From Paraflavisolibacter caeni (lineage in GTDB: Bacteria > Bacteroidota > Bacteroidia > Chitinophagales > Chitinophagaceae), in contig NZ_JAOTIF010000023.1 in NCBI RefSeq assembly GCF_025628885.1, positions 1 to 64,000 on the forward strand: 64,000 bases of DNA, given 5' to 3'. This document shows positions 42,970-52,924 of this stretch, piece by piece. The translations under genes and the position numbers were made by a program. Each line of letters starts with the position of its first letter. The first letter of the stretch is position 1. Under the pieces are notes generated by a model that ran no database searches, was not told the DNA's origin, and saw nothing but the letters and a program-made list of their open reading frames with translations.

Positions 42970-43410
42970 ATGCGAACCAACGATCAACCATACAACACAT
43001 CTGAATACTGGATGGAGTTCATTCAAAATGAATTGTCGCTTCATGTGAAGAAGTATATGGATGAAAAAAAAATGAACCAATCGCAACTGGCCACAGAACT
43101 GGGTGTCAACAAAAGTTTTATAGCACAGGTGCTGAAAGGAAAATTCAATTATACGCTTAGTAAGCTCATTGATTTTTCCCTAGCCGTAGGTCTTGTGCCC
43201 AATATTCAATTCAAATCAATAAATGATTACCTTCTTCATAAAGAAAACAAGCGCCTTAAACGTGAAATCAATCTTACAGGAAATCAATACCTGGTTATGA
43301 AAACCGGGAAAACTAAACTGTCATTGCAGGGAAATTTGAGTGGTATAACCGTTGCCCTGGATGCGCACCAGGTGAATACAATAACACCCTCTGAAACCAA
43401 AATCGCTTAA
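42970..43410 (+). CDS. XRE-family helix-turn-helix regulator (antitoxin-like)
   Basis: A 146-residue cytoplasmic protein with one HTH domain at about residues 22-82: KKYMDEKKMNQSQLATELGVNKSFIAQVLKGKFNYTLS in pieces, the Cro/C1 type. The C-terminal third (GNQYLVMKTGKTKLSLQGN) is beta-rich and unrecognised. It starts a three-gene operon with a SecB-like protein (5 bp gap) and an S41 protease (4-bp overlap). HTH plus SecB-like pairs occur in toxin-antitoxin-chaperone systems, so an autorepressor or antitoxin role is plausible, but no known toxin family is adjacent. Confidence 0.8.
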   Translation: MRTNDQPYNTSEYWMEFIQNELSLHVKKYMDEKKMNQSQLATELGVNKSFIAQVLKGKFNYTLSKLIDFSLAVGLVPNIQFKSINDYLLHKENKRLKREINLTGNQYLVMKTGKTKLSLQGNLSGITVALDAHQVNTITPSETKIA

Positions 43411-43415
43411 TAGTT

Positions 43416-43874
43416 ATGGCGAAAAGAAAAGGAAGCAAACCATTCCAGATATCAATAAAGAAAGTAAAACAATTAAGCTTTGGTATAGATGAAAGTGTCG
43501 AAGTGCCAGATGCTGATGATCTCAATGTGCTCATAGAGCAAAACCTTTCTTTTTCAACAAAGGATGATATCCTCTTCTTGCTGTTGAACATTACCTTTTC
43601 ATCCAAATCGACAGATAGAATATTGATGAATGGTATTGTGCAGAATATATTTGTCATCAAAGATTTGAAAAGAATGGTGGATCCAAAGAAACCTGATGTT
43701 ATCAATATTCCGGATAACATTCTATCCACCCTATTGAGTATTTCTATTGCTCATAGCCGTGCTTTGTTGGCGCAAAGTGCTATGGGCACTGCATTCCAGG
43801 ATATTTATATTCCCCTGGTCAATCCCGAACAGGTAGTCAAAGAATTGTTTAACCAAGATGTATACGGAATATGA
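43416..43874 (+). CDS. SecB-like chaperone-fold protein
   Basis: A 152-residue cytoplasmic protein. Two beta-rich stretches (LSFGIDESVEVPDAD, ILFLLLNITFSSKS, VQNIFVIKDL) precede a C-terminal helix SIAHSRALLAQSAMGTAF followed by IYIPLVNPEQVV. This matches the end of SecB, where a long helix precedes a Pro-rich P(L/P)VN segment. SecB-like proteins hold unfolded proteins for export or protect antitoxins in toxin-antitoxin-chaperone modules. Overall similarity to housekeeping SecB is weak. It sits between an XRE regulator and an exported protease, so a dedicated holdase for either neighbour is possible. An unrelated small protein with a similar tail cannot be excluded. Confidence 0.55.
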   Translation: MAKRKGSKPFQISIKKVKQLSFGIDESVEVPDADDLNVLIEQNLSFSTKDDILFLLLNITFSSKSTDRILMNGIVQNIFVIKDLKRMVDPKKPDVINIPDNILSTLLSISIAHSRALLAQSAMGTAFQDIYIPLVNPEQVVKELFNQDVYGI

Positions 43875-45150: not shown

Positions 45151-45846
45151 TTATTTTGAAATGGCTGTAATGGGAGTTAATTCCAATTTACGGAACTCCA
45201 CCTCAGATCCTTCTGCCTGCACCGCAATATGGCCCTTTTGAGCTGTCGCATTATAGCCGTAATTCACCAGTTCTCCATTGACCCAAACCTTTATCGTATC
45301 CTTTAGGCATTCAATGGTCATGGTGTTCCATTGTCCAAGTGGTTTTTCCGAGCCGTCAGTCAGATTAAGGATGCGGCGCTCTTTGCCCTCTGTAATGCCC
45401 CAGTTTTCTTTAGGTCCCCGCCGCTTTTCCATATCAGGTACGGTGATGTCTTCCACAATACACCAGAAGTCTCCTGCATCCTGGTGCATCATCTGTACTT
45501 CTATGGATTTGGGAAACATTTTATAAAGTGCACGTGGGGTGGAAGCATGTACCAAAATGCCACAGTTGCCCGGTTCGCCAGCAAAGCGATACTCCGTTTG
45601 CAGCCGGTAATTTTGGTAGACAGCATCGGTGACCAGGTGACCATTAGGTTTTCCCAGGCTTACAAGCATGCCATTCCTGACGATAAACGGGTTTTTGGCT
45701 GCGGAATTGGTATCCATTTCCGGAACATCTACGTGCCATCCGGTCAAATCTTTACCATTAAATAGGCTATAGGATTGTTGTTGCTTATGGACAGCACAGG
45801 ATAAAAAAGTGAACAGGGTGATCGTACTAAGAAGCAAATTTTTCAT
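45151..45846 (-). CDS. DUF1080 (3-keto-disaccharide hydrolase) lipoprotein
   Basis: A 231-residue lipoprotein; the signal ends FLSC (Cys about 17). The ATG at 45846 is chosen over a TTG one codon upstream. The DUF1080 concanavalin-like fold is clear: LFNGKDLTGWHV near the N-terminus, FIVRNGMLVS, GNCGILVHAST, SIEVQMMHQDAGDFW and LGQWNTMTIEC. Some members hydrolyse 3-keto-glucosides; others have only a binding role. It is convergent with the S41 gene and divergent from the permease operon, and appears monocistronic. Confidence 0.88.
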   Translation of the reverse strand: MKNLLLSTITLFTFLSCAVHKQQQSYSLFNGKDLTGWHVDVPEMDTNSAAKNPFIVRNGMLVSLGKPNGHLVTDAVYQNYRLQTEYRFAGEPGNCGILVHASTPRALYKMFPKSIEVQMMHQDAGDFWCIVEDITVPDMEKRRGPKENWGITEGKERRILNLTDGSEKPLGQWNTMTIECLKDTIKVWVNGELVNYGYNATAQKGHIAVQAEGSEVEFRKLELTPITAISK

Positions 45847-46006
45847 CAAAGAAATCCATTGTTTTAACCTGGGTAAAAGTGGATGTATGTATTGAAAAGA
45901 TAATCCAATTGTAGCTCTTCTAAAAGTTTTAGTGTAAATTCAAAGTGTGACATAACATCGGATAGGTAAATGATCGCTGTTTTTTAAGCCATTAAAACTT
46001 TTCAGA

Positions 46007-47383
46007 TTGTCTCAGACATCAAACGAATTGAAACGGACACTGACACCAATCATGTTGTGGGGGTTGGGTGTGGGCTATGTCATTTCGGGCATGTATTTCG
46101 GCTGGAACCTTGGTTTAGAAAAAGGAGGCACACTGGGTTTAGCCATTGCTACTTTCTTTATTACGGCGATGTACATCACGTTCACTTTCAGCTATACGGA
46201 ACTGGCCTGCGCCATCCCAAAAGCAGGCGGTGCCTTTGATTATGCCAACCGTGCTTTGGGAAAAGAATTGGGCTTTATTGCCGGCATGGCACAGAACATT
46301 GAGTTTATCTTTGCCCCACCGGCCATAGCATTCGCCATAGGAGCTTACTTCAACTTATTTTTTCCTCAAATACCCATACTGGCCATAGCTATCTTCAGTT
46401 ATGTTGTTTTTACAGCATTGAACGTGTATGGAGTAAAAGCTGCGGCAACCTTTGAGTTGGTTATCACCATCCTGGCTGTTGGAGAGTTGTTGCTGTTCAC
46501 AGGCGTTAGCCTGCCACACTTTAAAATGGAAAACCTGCAGCATAATGCATTTCCCAATGGATGGCAGGGCGTGTTTGCAGCGATTCCGTTTGCTATTTGG
46601 TTTTTCCTTGCCATTGAAGGTGTTGCCAACGTTGCAGAAGAAGCCCTGCATCCGCAACGTACCATTTTAAAGGGTTTTGGTTCGGCTATCCTAACGCTGG
46701 TTATTTTATGCATTCTTGTGTTTATAAGTTCTATAGGCGTGGCAGGATGGGAGAAAATCGTATTTAAAAGCGATGGGAGTATGTCCGACTCTCCTTTGCC
46801 AATGGCCCTGGAGCAGATTGTGGGTAATAACAACATGCTCTACCACCTATTGATCACAGTAGGTTTGTTTGGATTGATTGCCTCCTTCCATGGCATAATC
46901 CTGGCAGCAGGCCGGTCAAGTTACGAGTTTGGAAAAGTAAGATTTGCTCCTGCCTTCCTGGGAAAAGTGCACAAGAAGTTTCAAACACCATCCAATGCAC
47001 TACTGGTGAATATGTGCGTCGGGATCGTTGCCTTACTTACCGGGAAAACATCAGAGATCATCACTATCTCCGTGTTTGGTGCACTTACCCTTTATATCAT
47101 TTCCATGATCGCCCTGCTGCGCCTAAGAAAGAAAGAGCCACAGATGAACCGTCCATTCAAGGTTCCGCTTTATCCATTGTTCCCAGTTACAGCTTTAGTC
47201 ATTGCAGTTTTTTCATTCGTTGCTATGACTGTATACAATACAAGGCTGGCTGTGATCTTTTTCCTGATCCTGGGCGGTGGTTATTTCGTTTTCAAATTAT
47301 TGAATCGCCAAGCTGTTCAAAGTGTCACTGAAATGGATCAACATACTGTAGAAGACAAAAATATTCAAAGTGAATACTCCTGA
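46007..47383 (+). CDS. APC-superfamily permease, ethanolamine permease type
   Basis: A 458-residue inner-membrane transporter with about twelve hydrophobic segments. The first third matches the ethanolamine permease group of the APC family: MLWGLGVGYVISGMYFGWN, GTLGLAIATFF, ELACAIPKAGGAFDYANRALG and AGMAQNIEFIFAPPAIAF. No ATG lies near the start. The TTG at 46007 is the best initiator because the ATG at codon 17 would remove the conserved N-terminal leader into helix 1. It is the first gene of a five-gene operon; the glutamine-synthetase-like gene begins one base after its stop. Likely substrate is ethanolamine or a related small amino-alcohol or amine, imported with protons or by exchange. 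Confidence 0.85.
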   Translation: MSQTSNELKRTLTPIMLWGLGVGYVISGMYFGWNLGLEKGGTLGLAIATFFITAMYITFTFSYTELACAIPKAGGAFDYANRALGKELGFIAGMAQNIEFIFAPPAIAFAIGAYFNLFFPQIPILAIAIFSYVVFTALNVYGVKAAATFELVITILAVGELLLFTGVSLPHFKMENLQHNAFPNGWQGVFAAIPFAIWFFLAIEGVANVAEEALHPQRTILKGFGSAILTLVILCILVFISSIGVAGWEKIVFKSDGSMSDSPLPMALEQIVGNNNMLYHLLITVGLFGLIASFHGIILAAGRSSYEFGKVRFAPAFLGKVHKKFQTPSNALLVNMCVGIVALLTGKTSEIITISVFGALTLYIISMIALLRLRKKEPQMNRPFKVPLYPLFPVTALVIAVFSFVAMTVYNTRLAVIFFLILGGGYFVFKLLNRQAVQSVTEMDQHTVEDKNIQSEYS

Positions 47384-47384
47384 T

Positions 47385-48740
47385 ATGACCATCAACGAGA
47401 TCATAGAATACATTAAAAGTCATCCTTTAGGAAAAGTAAAGATTGCCTTTACTGATATCGATGGCATTTTACGTGGGAAATATATTTCATCTGAAAAGTT
47501 TATTTCAGTTGTAGAAAGTGGAACCGGCTTTTGTGATGTGATCTTTGGGTGGGATGCCAATGATGCCGCCTATGATAATGCGGAATTCACTGGTTGGCAT
47601 ACGGGCTATCCGGATGCACCTGCAAGAATTGATACCACTACGTTCAGAAAGATCCCCTGGGAATATGACGTACCCTTCTTTTTAGGTGAGTTGATCAACA
47701 AGAATGGTGAGCCTGCTTATGTCTGCCCAAGACAACTCATGAAAAAGGTTTTGAAACAAGCTGAGTCAATGGGGTTTATTCCGTATTTCTCCCAGGAATT
47801 TGAATGGTACAACTTTGAAGAAACACCACAAAGCGTAAGCGACAAACAATATAAAGATCTGAAGCCGCTGACGCCGGGTATGTTTGGCTATTCCATCTTG
47901 CGCAGTTCATTGAAGAACGACTTCTTTACAGAGCTCTTTGATCTGCTCAAAAAGTTCAATGTTCCATTGGAGGGATTACATACAGAAACTGGCCCAGGTA
48001 CCTATGAAGCCGCCATCGCTTTTAGCGGATTGCAGGAGGCTGCAGACAGGGCAACGTTGTTCAAATCGGCAGTAAAAGAAATTGCCTACAGAAACGGGAT
48101 CATGGCCACATTTATGGCAAAGGTAAGTGAGCATCTTCCGGGCTGTGGCGGACATGTACATCAGAGCCTTTGTGATGGAGAGAACAACAATCTCTTTTAT
48201 GAAGATCAAGATGCGCAGAAGATAAGTGCTTTGATGAAAAGCTACATTGCCGGGCAGTTGTATTGTTTGCCCCATATACTGCCCATGTTTGCCCCAACCA
48301 TCAACAGTTATAAGAGATTAGTGGAAGGTGCCTGGGCACCTACTACCCTTACCTGGGGCATAGACAACAGGACGGTAGCGCTCCGGGTTTTGGCAGGAAG
48401 TAAAAAGTCGTGCCGGTTGGAAACAAGAGTGATAGGTTCTGATGTAAATCCCTACCTGGCCATGGCTGCTTGTTTAGCGAGTGGTCTTTACGGTATCAAA
48501 AATGGGATGGAATTAAAGCAACCTGTAACGATTGGTAATGGTTACAGAGATTACAGCAACGGGACACTGCCACGTACATTGGATGAGGCTACGCAGTTGA
48601 TGAAACAATCTGATGTAGCAAATGAAATTCTCGGGGAACAATTTACTGCACATTTTACCCAAACCCGTGAATGGGAGTGGCGACAACATTTAAAGGCTGT
48701 AACTGACTGGGAGTATAAAAGATATTTTGAAATCATTTAA
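47385..48740 (+). CDS. Glutamine synthetase homologue, gamma-glutamyl-amine synthetase type
   Basis: A 451-residue cytoplasmic enzyme. The N-terminal beta-grasp has VKIAFTDIDGILRGKYIS. The catalytic barrel has FSQEFEWYNFEE, LHTETGPGTYEAAIAF, LPGCGGHVHQSLCDG and the ATP/amine region RVLAGSKKSCRLETRVIGSDVNPYLAMAA in pieces. This is the PuuA/GlnA3-GlnA4 type, which joins glutamate through its gamma-carboxyl to an amine, not to ammonium. The ATG at 47385 sits one base after the permease stop; an upstream GTG at 47370 would overlap it and is less likely. With the dehydrogenases and hydrolase downstream, the probable reaction is ATP-dependent formation of gamma-glutamyl-ethanolamide or a similar adduct. 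Confidence 0.85.
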   Translation: MTINEIIEYIKSHPLGKVKIAFTDIDGILRGKYISSEKFISVVESGTGFCDVIFGWDANDAAYDNAEFTGWHTGYPDAPARIDTTTFRKIPWEYDVPFFLGELINKNGEPAYVCPRQLMKKVLKQAESMGFIPYFSQEFEWYNFEETPQSVSDKQYKDLKPLTPGMFGYSILRSSLKNDFFTELFDLLKKFNVPLEGLHTETGPGTYEAAIAFSGLQEAADRATLFKSAVKEIAYRNGIMATFMAKVSEHLPGCGGHVHQSLCDGENNNLFYEDQDAQKISALMKSYIAGQLYCLPHILPMFAPTINSYKRLVEGAWAPTTLTWGIDNRTVALRVLAGSKKSCRLETRVIGSDVNPYLAMAACLASGLYGIKNGMELKQPVTIGNGYRDYSNGTLPRTLDEATQLMKQSDVANEILGEQFTAHFTQTREWEWRQHLKAVTDWEYKRYFEII

Positions 48741-48749
48741 AGATGCTGC

Positions 48750-49898
48750 ATGACATTCGATAGTATATACCAGTATAACTTTCCGACTACCATCCGCTTC
48801 GGAGTAGGGGCCAGCAAAGAGCTTGGTGATTACCTGATAAAAAATAAGCTATCAAATCCCTTGTTGGTTACAGATTCCACTGTAGCACAGCTCTCATTTT
48901 TTAAAGACATCATCTGCAACTTTGAAAAGAAAAATATTTCCGTAGAAGTATTTTCTGAGATCCATAAAAACCCGCTGAAGTCAGATGTCTACAAGGGCAC
49001 AGAGGTATATGATGGAACAAGGCGGGATGCCATCGTTGGTATTGGTGGTGGGGCTGCACTGGACGTAGCAAGGGCCATTGTGCTGAGGATAAATCATCGC
49101 GAAGATTTATTTACTTACGACGATCTGATAGGAGGTGATGTTTATGTGACCAACGAGGTGCCTCATTTTATCACGATTCCCACAACGGCAGGAACAGGAA
49201 GTGAAGTAGGAAGAAGCGCAATTATTGCAGATGATGAAACAAAGCAGAAAAAAATATTGTTCTCTCCTAAGCTGATGGCGAAGATCGTTTTTGCAGATCC
49301 TGTGCTCACAATGGAGCTTCCGGCTCCTATTACGGCGGCCACTGGCATGGATGCGCTGACACATAATATGGAAGCTTACCTGGCAAAAATGCCTCATCCT
49401 ATTTGTGAAGGCATTGCCCTTCAGGGGATTGCTTTGATCAGCCAATCGCTGGAAAAGGCAGTTAAAGACCCTGACCTTGACTCGCGCGGCAAAATGCTGA
49501 TCGCTTCCATGATGGGCGCAATTGCTTTTCAAAAAGGATTGGGTGTGGTGCATTCCCTGGCGCATCCCCTTTCTTCCCTGCTGGATACGCATCATGGCCT
49601 GGCCAATGCGATCAATATTCCTTATGGGATGCAATTTAACATCGCCGGATTTGAAGACAGATTTAAATATATAGCGAGAAGCCTTGAGTTGAAAGAAGAA
49701 AGCGGTGAAGCGGTAGTGGATTATTTGTTTGACCTGAATGCCAGAATAGGTATTCCTCATCAATTAAGAGCCATTGGTGTGAAAGAAGACCATATAGAAA
49801 CGCTGGCTGACCTGGCCTTTGCCGATTTCGCTCACCCCAATAATCCAAAACCTGTTACGAGAGCGGATTTCCGGCAACTCTATTTGAAAGCTTTATAA
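48750..49898 (+). CDS. Iron-containing (group III) alcohol dehydrogenase
   Basis: A 382-residue cytoplasmic NAD(P)-dependent dehydrogenase. The nucleotide-binding domain has GIGGGAALDVARAI and IPTTAGTGSEVGRSAI. The metal domain has GMDALTHNMEAYLAK, VVHSLAHPLS and DTHHGLANAI, carrying the Asp and three His ligands for iron. It oxidises a primary alcohol to the aldehyde. In this operon the likely substrate is the hydroxyethyl group of a gamma-glutamylated amino-alcohol, giving the aldehyde for the ALDH encoded downstream. This role is inferred from order. It starts 9 bp after the glutamine-synthetase-like gene. Confidence 0.92.
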   Translation: MTFDSIYQYNFPTTIRFGVGASKELGDYLIKNKLSNPLLVTDSTVAQLSFFKDIICNFEKKNISVEVFSEIHKNPLKSDVYKGTEVYDGTRRDAIVGIGGGAALDVARAIVLRINHREDLFTYDDLIGGDVYVTNEVPHFITIPTTAGTGSEVGRSAIIADDETKQKKILFSPKLMAKIVFADPVLTMELPAPITAATGMDALTHNMEAYLAKMPHPICEGIALQGIALISQSLEKAVKDPDLDSRGKMLIASMMGAIAFQKGLGVVHSLAHPLSSLLDTHHGLANAINIPYGMQFNIAGFEDRFKYIARSLELKEESGEAVVDYLFDLNARIGIPHQLRAIGVKEDHIETLADLAFADFAHPNNPKPVTRADFRQLYLKAL

Positions 49899-49909
49899 AT
49901 ACAATAGAA

Positions 49910-50623
49910 ATGAAAATTGCTTTATTATACCCGGATTCTGATAAAAAACACGAGGAATATGCCAGGTGGTTAAAAGGGGATGATGACCTGGAAGTGGTAA
50001 AGTTATCAGCTGCAGACAGTAACCTGCACGAAATAGCGAGTTGTGATGGGGTTGTTTTAAGTGGAGGAATAGATCTTCATCCAAAGAACTATGAAAATTT
50101 CCGGACAGATTATCCGAACGCACCCAGCAAATTTGATGTTAAAAGAGATGAATTCGAAGCAGGTGCATTTGTGATGGCCCAGGAGAAGAATTTACCTGTA
50201 TTGGGTATTTGCAGAGGGATGCAGTTGATCAATTGCATGATGAATGGTACACTGAAACAAGACCTGGGTGAAGAGTTGAACAGTACGCACTGGGATGACC
50301 CAGCAAATGATAAAATACATGAAGTAAAGGTTGAAAGAAATACGCTGCTTTATGAATTGGTCCAATCCGATTTTTCTGAAGTTAATAGCGCTCACCACCA
50401 GGCAATTGAAAAGCTAGGTAAAGGCCTTCGTGTGAATTGCACCGCTGCTGATGGAACTATTGAAGGATTTGAATGGGCTGATGCTTCCGGCAAGCCATTC
50501 CTTTTGTGCGTTCAATGGCATCCTGAACGGATGTATCAATTCAAATTGGAGAACTCTCCTTTATCCAAGGGTATCCGTAGCCTGTTTATCGAAGCAATGA
50601 AAAAGTCAGGAGGTGGTCAATGA
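49910..50623 (+). CDS. Gamma-glutamyl hydrolase, peptidase C26/PuuD type
   Basis: A 237-residue class-I glutamine-amidotransferase-like hydrolase. DGVVLSGGIDLHPKNY is the family N-terminal motif. The nucleophile is Cys101 in LGICRGMQLIN, and the His is in VQWHPERM, followed by a Glu two residues on as usual. NSAHHQAIEKLG is also typical. Such enzymes cleave gamma-glutamyl amides (PuuD releases GABA from gamma-glutamyl-GABA). Here the likely product is free glutamate plus an amino acid such as glycine. Start 11 bp after the alcohol dehydrogenase; its stop overlaps the ALDH start by 4 bp (ATGA). Confidence 0.92.
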   Translation: MKIALLYPDSDKKHEEYARWLKGDDDLEVVKLSAADSNLHEIASCDGVVLSGGIDLHPKNYENFRTDYPNAPSKFDVKRDEFEAGAFVMAQEKNLPVLGICRGMQLINCMMNGTLKQDLGEELNSTHWDDPANDKIHEVKVERNTLLYELVQSDFSEVNSAHHQAIEKLGKGLRVNCTAADGTIEGFEWADASGKPFLLCVQWHPERMYQFKLENSPLSKGIRSLFIEAMKKSGGGQ

Positions 50624-51987
50624 AAATTATTAATCCAGCCACAGAAGAATTGATCACTGAAGTTCAGGAAGACTCCTATGACTCAGTAGATGAAAAGTTT
50701 AGGCTGCTCCAGGCAGCACAACCCGCCTGGCAGGAAGTTGCTTTAGAAAAAAGGATAGAAGTGCTCAAGCGTTTCGCCCTTCTCCTGGATCAACATAATG
50801 AGCAACTGGCAGTCGTGTTGACTTCTGAAGTAGGGAAGCCTTTGCAGCAGTCGCGTAACGAGATCGCAGGGGCGCGAAAGAGGATCCAATGGCTAACGGC
50901 TCATGCATTGAAATACCTGTCCGATGAAGTGATGTATACAGAAAATGGACTGGAAGAAAAGATAGCCTATGAACCGTTGGGCATCATCTGTAATATCTCT
51001 GCCTGGAACTATCCTTACCTAGTAGGCGTCAATGTTTTTGTGCCGGCTTTGCTGGCCGGGAATGCAGTGATGTATAAGCCGTCAGAATACGCAACATTGA
51101 CCGGGATAGAAATCGAAAAACTGCTGAAAGAAGCAGGCGTACCTGCAGATGTATTTCATGTGGCCTTAGGTGCAAAAGAAACAGGGGCGTTGTTGTTGGA
51201 GCTTCCTTTTGATGGATACTTCTTTACTGGTTCCTATAAAACAGGGCAATATATTTATGAAAGAGTAGCTCCGAAAATGGTGCCCTGCCAGTGTGAATTA
51301 GGGGGCAAGGATCCCTTGTACGTGGCAGATGATGTTGCTGATATCAAAGCTGTAGCTGCCAGTACTGCTGATGGTGCATTTTATAACAACGGGCAAAGTT
51401 GTTGTGCTGTTGAAAGAATTTATGTTCATGAAAACGTATATGATCAATATGTGGATGAATTTATCAAAGAAGTAAGATCATGGAAGATTGGTTTGCCAAA
51501 AGAAGGCGGTGTATATATTGGCCCTTTGACCCGAAAGGATCAATTGAATGTACTGATGGAACAGGTTAAGGATGCTTTACAAAAAGATGCAGCCCTGCTC
51601 ACTGGTGGCAAGCCGATAGAACGTAAGGGCTATTATTTTGAGCCAACTGTTTTAACCAATGTAAACCATGACATGAAGGTGATGAAAGAAGAGTCCTTTG
51701 GACCGATCATTGGCATTATGAAAGTGCATAGTGATGATGAAGCCGTTGAATTGATGAAAGATACAGAATACGGGTTGACGGCTTCTGTATACAGCAGTGA
51801 CAAAGCCAGGGCAGAAAAAGTGTTGAAGCAGATCAATGCAGGAACCGGTTATTGGAATTGCTGCGACCGGGTAAGTGCAGCCCTGCCCTGGAGTGGTAGG
51901 AAACATTCAGGCTTTGGAACCACACTTTCACATGCCGGCCTGCAGGCTTTTGTAAAGCCTAAAGCGTATCATTTAAAAACCTCATAA
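50620..51987 (+). CDS. NAD(P)-dependent aldehyde dehydrogenase
   Basis: A 455-residue cytoplasmic ALDH. Motifs are ICNISAWNYPYLVGVNVF, VMYKPSEYATLTG, the active Glu region CQCELGGKDPLYVADD, and the catalytic Cys261 in NNGQSCCAVERIYVH. The C-terminal EESFGPIIGIM and PWSGRKHSGFG regions are also typical. It resembles succinate-semialdehyde and gamma-glutamyl-aminoaldehyde dehydrogenases. It would oxidise the aldehyde formed by the iron dehydrogenase to the acid before hydrolysis. It is the last gene of the operon. The convergent CBM lipoprotein ends only 13 bp away, with no terminator in the gap. Confidence 0.92.
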   Translation: MKIINPATEELITEVQEDSYDSVDEKFRLLQAAQPAWQEVALEKRIEVLKRFALLLDQHNEQLAVVLTSEVGKPLQQSRNEIAGARKRIQWLTAHALKYLSDEVMYTENGLEEKIAYEPLGIICNISAWNYPYLVGVNVFVPALLAGNAVMYKPSEYATLTGIEIEKLLKEAGVPADVFHVALGAKETGALLLELPFDGYFFTGSYKTGQYIYERVAPKMVPCQCELGGKDPLYVADDVADIKAVAASTADGAFYNNGQSCCAVERIYVHENVYDQYVDEFIKEVRSWKIGLPKEGGVYIGPLTRKDQLNVLMEQVKDALQKDAALLTGGKPIERKGYYFEPTVLTNVNHDMKVMKEESFGPIIGIMKVHSDDEAVELMKDTEYGLTASVYSSDKARAEKVLKQINAGTGYWNCCDRVSAALPWSGRKHSGFGTTLSHAGLQAFVKPKAYHLKTS

Positions 51988-52000
51988 CAGTTGAAATTCG

Positions 52001-52924
52001 TTATGGTAGTTTGCTGATTTGAACATCATCAGCGTAAAAATAGGGTGTCAATAAAACGTTACGCCAGCCAAGATTGTCGATATTAGCCCCATTAGATCCA
52101 GTGGATGTCAGCTTGATCTTATTTGAACCCGAAGCTAAATGAACTGTATCCGAAACCGTTGACCAATTCGTCCAGCTGCCAGTTGGAGGAAAAGACAGTG
52201 TTGTGTTGACCACTACATTGTTCACTTCAAATTTTAGAGGGCGATCAGCAGTAGAGCCATTCGCATAACGGAATTGGAGCACAACAGAACCAGAGTCAAC
52301 TTTGTTAAAAGTCCATTCAATATAGTCGTCGGTGCTGTTGATGAAATCAACGAAGCCTGTACCGGTAAAACCTGCACGATCAGCGGCGACTACAGCCTTG
52401 TTTAATACTGCAGATTCGGCTTCTAGAATAGTGGTGCGTTGTTGGATTGTATCAGGCGAGGCATTGATGCATAAAAACCCAACTTTAGCAGTGCCGCCGG
52501 TTACTTTGAAGTTAACCGCGTTCAATGGTAAAGGATAACTGCTATCAGGATATGCTTGCTGAATTGGGGCTGAAATAACCTCGCCGCCACCATCAGCCCA
52601 TAAATACATACCTATGCCGGAGGCTTTTCCATAAACTGAGAAAGCGTAATTGCCATCTGGCAGATTTTGAACGGTCTGGGTAATGGTTCCATTCCAGGGC
52701 GTAAAAGGTGCAGAAAATTGTAAACCATATTGACCTGATTTCGCAGCTATAGAAGTGGGGGTAAAACCTCCGGAAGTTCCAACCTGCCATCCTTTCAGGG
52801 AGTCTTCAAAACCTGGATTCTTCAATTGTTCTGGTGTTTTTTGTTCAGAAGAATCATCCTTGCTACAAGAAGAAACAAGCGTTAAAATAAAGCACAGGAA
52901 TGCGGCTTGTGTAATGATTTTCAT
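52001..52924 (-). CDS. Carbohydrate-binding lipoprotein (CBM35/CBM6-like C-terminus)
   Basis: A 307-residue lipoprotein; the signal ends TLVSSC (Cys20) and is followed by an acidic spacer. The first domain (about 35-165; NPGFEDSLKGWQVGTSGG) looks like a CBM4-type beta-sandwich. The second (about 168-305) starts ILEAESAVL and contains GFTGTGFVDFINSTDDYIEW, VVLQFRYANGS and SGSNKIKLTSTGSNG, the CBM35/CBM6 pattern. It has no catalytic domain. It presumably holds glycan at the cell surface. It is not next to any glycosidase; the nearest glycan genes are 11 kb away. Confidence 0.8.
   Translation of the reverse strand: MKIITQAAFLCFILTLVSSCSKDDSSEQKTPEQLKNPGFEDSLKGWQVGTSGGFTPTSIAAKSGQYGLQFSAPFTPWNGTITQTVQNLPDGNYAFSVYGKASGIGMYLWADGGGEVISAPIQQAYPDSSYPLPLNAVNFKVTGGTAKVGFLCINASPDTIQQRTTILEAESAVLNKAVVAADRAGFTGTGFVDFINSTDDYIEWTFNKVDSGSVVLQFRYANGSTADRPLKFEVNNVVVNTTLSFPPTGSWTNWSTVSDTVHLASGSNKIKLTSTGSNGANIDNLGWRNVLLTPYFYADDVQISKLP

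Follow-up and report, generated by a model that had tools for sequence, protein, structure and literature searches.

A five-gene locus of Paraflavisolibacter caeni with a predicted role in B12-free ethanolamine use by gamma-glutamylation, encoding a ligase outside the GlnA4 lineage

Results

Five same-strand genes at the locus

We analyzed a 64,000-nt stretch of contig NZ_JAOTIF010000023.1 from Paraflavisolibacter caeni (the window, to whose full length all coordinates refer), in which five open reading frames (ORFs), all on the + strand and spanning 46007–51987, encode a permease, a glutamine-synthetase-like ligase, an iron-type alcohol dehydrogenase (Fe-ADH), a C26 hydrolase and an aldehyde dehydrogenase (ALDH). 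Judging from gene content and comparison across genomes, these five genes very probably form one transcription unit for B12-free ethanolamine use through gamma-glutamylation, with a ligase from a different lineage than those previously described for this substrate.

The first gene (46007..47383, +; 458 aa from TTG, the start assumed here, the start codon being ambiguous) encodes an APC-type ethanolamine permease (Eat, TIGR00908). It is followed by the candidate gamma-glutamyl-ethanolamide synthetase, the glutamine-synthetase-like ligase (47385..48740, +), which is 451 aa long from ATG 47385 and 456 aa from GTG 47370. ATG 47385 is the likely start: it sits one base past the permease stop and the alignments of many relatives begin there (query residue 6), whereas the first GTG would produce a 14-base overlap with the permease. 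Next come the Fe-ADH (48750..49898, +; 382 aa; PF00465/PF25137), a candidate gamma-glutamyl-ethanolamide dehydrogenase; the C26 hydrolase (49910..50623, +; 237 aa; PF07722 Peptidase_C26, 149 bits), a candidate gamma-glutamyl-glycine hydrolase; and the ALDH (50620..51987, +; 455 aa; PF00171, 432 bits), a candidate gamma-glutamyl-aminoacetaldehyde dehydrogenase. With gaps of +9 (ligase/Fe-ADH), +11 (Fe-ADH/C26) and −4 (C26/ALDH), the description of five tightly packed genes in the first-pass annotation of this DNA (gaps of −4 to +11) is borne out, given ATG 47385 as the ligase start.

One permease family accompanies alternative modules

The permease scored 466 bits against TIGR00908 (ethanolamine permease; curated cut-off 381.75), is the only match above cut-off in the whole genome, and shares just 22% identity with PuuP; its score and the linkage of its family to ethanolamine modules supply the cluster with a predicted ethanolamine transporter. 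We examined such permeases in 147 genomes of the family, scoring matches at TIGR00908 E ≤ 1e-100, and found 44 matches (42 above cut-off) in 43 genomes. Twenty-four lay within 1 kb of an operon-type ligase gene (the rest of the locus being truncated by a contig end in G053, G127 and one G081 copy), 18 were no more than 2 kb from a EutB gene that is followed by EutC, and one (G122), from a genome carrying the operon, was a fragment at a contig end. Ligase matches occurred in 38 of the 147 genomes, as 25 operons, 12 stand-alone relatives and one unassigned case (G090, L154), counted as non-operon, whose ligase clusters with operon ligases, has no adjoining permease and is cut by a contig end on its downstream side. 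In G045 the operon permease is in two pieces (L157), G137 was judged from L094, and in-frame stops were seen in the ligase of G087 (one) and the permease of G038 (two). EutB was present in 23 family genomes and the operon in 25, and no genome had both, compared with 3.9 expected (hypergeometric P 0.009, uncorrected for kinship). The first-pass annotation had noted the absence of ethanolamine ammonia-lyase and microcompartment genes from the window, and this extends to the whole P. caeni genome, in which neither EutB nor BMC shell proteins found a match.

A draw of 395 genomes across the phylum (with up to 4 candidates scored in any one genome) gave the permease in 20, eight of them shared with the family draw. 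Eight of these permeases stood beside an operon-type ligase, seven beside EutB (by coordinates) and two beside a GlnA4-clade ligase. In the latter two loci (L200 and L201, from a sister family), the permease is accompanied by a GlnA4-clade ligase, a short-chain dehydrogenase, an ALDH and an amidotransferase, the L201 amidotransferase being judged by eye from the ORF and the other genes by tblastn or Pfam. The same set, with a regulator in addition, has been described for the Streptomyces GlnA4 cluster. The L200 and L201 permeases nest within the clade of the window permease (100/99). This permease tree omitted the long-branched E. coli PuuP, Vescimonas and Embleya rows, and the L159 permease was dropped from the alignment as too short a piece. 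From these neighborhoods, one permease family fronts three catabolic modules, two of them of kinds known for ethanolamine, and this is our best evidence that the window module would also handle ethanolamine.

Four TIGR00908 permeases (L158, L202, L203 and L204) had no EutBC or glutamylation module found adjoining.

The gene order is conserved

The first-pass annotation had proposed examining the five-gene order in other Bacteroidota, and the order recurs there. We compared loci with a relative of the ligase, using the best 80 of 94; because the search patterns were derived from the window protein, the set is biased toward close relatives. Genes were counted as present within 3 kb (permease), 2.5 kb (Fe-ADH), 4.5 kb (C26) or 6 kb (ALDH). 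A permease on the same strand lay at most 3 kb upstream in 59 of the 68 loci with at least 1.6 kb of upstream sequence, and among the 63 loci with at least 4 kb downstream we found Fe-ADH in 60, C26 in 56 and ALDH in 59. All five genes were present in 43 of the 53 loci with enough sequence on both sides, and all 43 complete loci had the order permease-ligase-ADH-C26-ALDH, with at most 852 bases between permease and ligase. The clustering of the five genes is not due to chance. Its carriers are Bacteroidota (including Chitinophagaceae, Saprospiraceae, Cytophagales and Cyclobacteriaceae) and Bdellovibrionota. In Fangia (Pseudomonadota) all four enzymes are encoded, with no permease upstream. Gene clusters other than these five were each found in at most 6 of the 80 loci.

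At four loci (L018, L019, L021 and L040), genes of one cluster are inserted between the ligase and the Fe-ADH; the one tested, in L021, has an ORF6N domain.

The ligase has the hallmarks of an amine ligase

The ligase matched PF00120 at 316 bits and fell below every NCBIfam cut-off, scoring 225 of the 429 required for GlnA and 207 of the 650 for gamma-glutamylputrescine synthetase. Residues equivalent to E129, E131, E212, E220, H269, R321, R339, R344, E357 and R359 of E. coli GlnA are retained, and Y179 is replaced by Phe. The ammonium-related Glu327 is missing, its equivalent being Trp322 (456-aa numbering). In a second alignment set, Trp occupied this position in all 31 operon ligases, all 16 rows labelled stand-alone, all six Pseudomonadota relatives and all three IpuC-type proteins, while all five GlnA4/ethanolamine-ligase proteins had Phe. 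Krysenko et al. report a loss of Glu327, with Phe taking its place in GlnA4 and Trp doing so in PauA7 (PMC6529630). On balance, the protein appears to be an amine ligase rather than a glutamine synthetase.

We built ligase trees that included archaeal and E. coli glutamine synthetase and in which S. coelicolor GlnA4 was represented by an Embleya protein (Phe at the 327 position; a C26-type gene, a permease and an ALDH nearby); the second tree omitted the long-branched NpaA1. The nearest PDB entries to the ligase are 11zs and 5dm3, the latter of which we take to be the C. salexigens enzyme. Both fall in a GlnA4/ethanolamine-ligase clade with Ruegeria, Rhizobium and Embleya proteins, and this clade excludes the window ligase (100/100; second tree 99/97). 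The window ligase instead forms a group with six plasmid-borne ligases of Pseudomonadota (100/99; second tree 100/100), and together these next join IpuC with moderate support (94/88; second tree 96/78). PuuA is 29% identical to the window ligase, and its placement is unreliable because of a very long branch in both trees. By phylogeny, then, the ligase does not share the lineage of GlnA4 and the proteobacterial ethanolamine ligases. The first-pass term “GlnA4-like” remains apt for the chemistry and fails for descent, and the phylogenetic placement that it had suggested as a check came out on the IpuC side.

Stand-alone relatives of the ligase

Ligase matches occurred in 41 of the 395 phylum-draw genomes. 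Eight were beside the permease, the 16 loci examined were of a stand-alone type, and a further 17 genomes, all from one family (f24), had no permease match. The stand-alone ligase relative, 51–64% identical to that of the window, was accompanied by a protein of about 350 aa and a NagD-like HAD hydrolase in 14 of 19 loci and then in 12 of 12 further ones (stand-alone loci: L066, L144–L149, L151–L153, L156 and L206–L220, except L205). The ~350-aa partner had no Pfam or PDB match and looked kinase-like by eye only. EutB was present in 4 of the 12 family genomes with a stand-alone ligase; the type co-occurs with EutB in G013, G063 and G141, and in G058 the ligase lacks the two partners. Six phylum-draw genomes likewise had both a ligase match and EutB, and in all six the ligase was of the stand-alone type with other neighbors. 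Because it is present in genomes that also have EutB, the stand-alone cluster probably has some other role.

Downstream enzymes keep their catalytic residues

In the Fe-ADH, D201, H205, H268 and H282, which we presume from FucO to be the metal ligands, were invariant in 75 of 75 aligned rows. The C26 hydrolase, which matches the PuuD chain 6vtv at 1.8e-12, has C101, H204 and E206 invariant in 63 of 63 rows, and in the ALDH N130, E226 and the adjacent C261/C262, presumably its catalytic residues, were invariant in 65 of 65. The cluster thus combines alcohol dehydrogenase, aldehyde dehydrogenase and gamma-glutamyl hydrolase families with these residues retained. The genome also encodes the glycine cleavage system P-protein.

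Five loci (L011, L036, L039, L053 and L056) have the ligase, Fe-ADH and ALDH with no C26 match between them; another gamma-glutamyl hydrolase may replace C26 there.

Discussion

A proposed pathway and its known counterparts

In the pathway that we propose, the Eat-type permease would import ethanolamine, and the ligase would use ATP to join glutamate to its amino group, giving gamma-glutamyl-ethanolamide. The Fe-ADH would oxidize the alcohol of this compound to an aldehyde, which the ALDH would convert to gamma-glutamyl-glycine, and the C26 hydrolase would then release glycine and regenerate glutamate. Glycine could feed the glycine cleavage system, a use that is plausible because the P-protein is present. 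We infer the substrate, the order of reactions, the products, co-transcription and induction from genomic evidence, which supports the first-pass reading of ethanolamine as substrate, its gamma-glutamylation, oxidation of alcohol and then aldehyde, and hydrolysis to glycine and glutamate.

Similar chemistry has been described elsewhere. GlnA4 of S. coelicolor is reported to make gamma-glutamyl-ethanolamide, with two oxidations and an amidohydrolysis to glycine and glutamate proposed to follow (PMC6529630); later steps have also been proposed for C. salexigens (PMC9397018). The S. coelicolor cluster (SCO1610–SCO1615), as described in PMC6529630, resembles the window operon in ethanolamine glutamylation, in a permease present in several Streptomyces and in the loss of Glu327; it differs in that orf2 is a short-chain dehydrogenase rather than an Fe-ADH and in including a regulator, and its ligase, as judged by stand-ins, belongs to a separate clade with Phe at the 327 position. 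In Phaeobacter sp. MED193, proteins of an operon with the same four enzymatic steps are reported to be more abundant on phosphorylethanolamine, and its genes to be close relatives of the ones demonstrated in C. salexigens and A. tumefaciens (PMC10132767); the transporter described there is of the TRAP type, unlike that of the window.

Ruegeria and Rhizobium clusters have an annotated Fe-ADH and ALDH, and the Rhizobium plasmid cluster has an amino acid permease, ligase, ALDH and Fe-ADH annotated together, but in both the hydrolase is annotated as N-formylglutamate amidohydrolase and the ligases, 32–33% identical to that of the window, belong to the other clade. Plasmid clusters of Legionella lytica and Photobacterium have a ligase 46% identical to the window's, followed by ALDH and Fe-ADH (and, in L. 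lytica, by a gene annotated “GMP synthase”), but their gene order differs and the stretches compared held no match to the window permease. The short eut operon (EutBC + Eat) shares the permease family but uses ethanolamine ammonia-lyase, whose B12 dependence has been reported (PMC9397018), whereas the window genome has no EutB match. Finally, the IpuC locus of Paenarthrobacter aurescens TC1 has a ligase from the same part of the tree, with Trp at the 327 position, and a nearby glutamine amidotransferase that matches the window C26, but also P450, ferredoxin, reductase and SDR genes, and is annotated for isopropylamine.

Alternative substrates

The same chemistry might act on another amino alcohol (alaninol, 3-aminopropanol, serinol or a mixture), with ethanolamine a minor substrate. 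The ligase is nearer to IpuC, whose pathway passes through alaninol, than to GlnA4, and both oxidation steps would also work for other primary amino alcohols; we nonetheless consider this improbable, since 18 of the 44 family permease matches adjoin EutBC, an ethanolamine ammonia-lyase, and two sister-family permeases accompany a GlnA4-type module. Much less probable still is a pathway for isopropylamine or another alkylamine, as the annotation of IpuC would imply. IpuC is the nearest ligase with an annotated substrate (36–38% identity, among the 60 of 233 plasmid records listed) and neighbors the window ligase in the tree (94/88), but the three IpuC-type loci have a cytochrome P450, a ferredoxin and a reductase, none of which is among the five window genes, where oxidation would begin with an alcohol dehydrogenase behind an ethanolamine-type permease. 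We give equally little credence to a Puu-type diamine (putrescine) pathway: although the ligase, C26 hydrolase and ALDH belong to families shared with PuuA, PuuD and PuuC, there is no PuuB-like gamma-glutamylputrescine oxidase among the five genes, the only part of the genome in which PuuB was looked for, the permease matches Eat rather than PuuP, and PuuA is distant and long-branched. That the operon serves a glutamine synthetase acting on ammonium, as the PF00120 domain and an Asp in the D50 column might suggest, is barely credible given Trp in place of Glu327 in the window and all 31 operon ligases and a score far under the GlnA cut-off.

Several observations weigh against ethanolamine gamma-glutamylation by a single transcription unit, which we still prefer. 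The ligase lies outside the GlnA4 clade and on the side of IpuC, with its isopropylamine annotation, and its D50 column holds Asp, in a poorly aligned stretch; D50 is reported lost in GlnA4 and PauA7 (PMC6529630). One family permease (G072) is an orphan with no module adjoining, and next to 3 of the 20 phylum-draw permeases none of the modules sought was found. Conservation is lowest for C26 (median identity 41%, versus 69–76% for the others), which was unmatched in 7 of 63 loci, three of which have no downstream enzyme at all and a fourth of which also lacks ALDH. No regulator recurred among the neighbors in the 80 loci, and no promoter was recognized for the operon. In a scan of the sequence, promoter-like sites numbered 9 against 13.2 expected and terminator-like sites 9 against 5.7 expected (SD 2.6); a Bacteroidota-type promoter pattern (one mismatch tolerated) was missing 5′ of the window permease and found 5′ of 9 of 77 relatives.

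What is new and why it matters

The first-pass annotation thus probably had the chemistry right, mistook the ligase lineage and overstated the novelty. Its description of the pathway as little described holds for Bacteroidota but not elsewhere: the same four steps are published for Streptomyces, Phaeobacter, Chromohalobacter and Agrobacterium (PMC6529630, PMC10132767, PMC9397018), and the Rhizobium plasmid cluster is annotated. Because of the published pathway and the annotated Ruegeria and Rhizobium clusters, neither the pathway nor its pairing with an Fe-ADH is new. What does appear new, as far as the open-licence literature listed shows, is a conserved operon in Bacteroidota and Bdellovibrionota, its different ligase lineage, and the exchange of modules behind a permease. 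The best reading of the permease neighborhoods is that this module, EutBC and the GlnA4 module can replace one another behind a single permease family. Going further, we lean toward the view that B12-independent ethanolamine gamma-glutamylation evolved two or more times, starting from different ligase lineages, and that EutBC, GlnA4-type and IpuC-side modules have been exchanged behind one Bacteroidota permease family.

The ethanolamine of membrane lipids is a widespread source of nitrogen and carbon, and B12-free use of it would, if we are right, extend to Bacteroidota and Bdellovibrionota. The locus shows how the operon setting, here one permease common to alternative modules, can hint at what an ambiguous ligase acts on. 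We offer the combination of clade and residue as a test for enzymes annotated merely “glutamine synthetase.”

Genes flanking the operon

On the opposite strand, the operon is flanked by genes for a protein with a 3-keto-disaccharide hydrolase domain (45151–45849, −) and a protein with carbohydrate-binding domains (52001–52924, −), neither with an evident link to it. Further upstream, 42970–43874 encodes a helix-turn-helix protein and then a 152-aa protein with no Pfam match.

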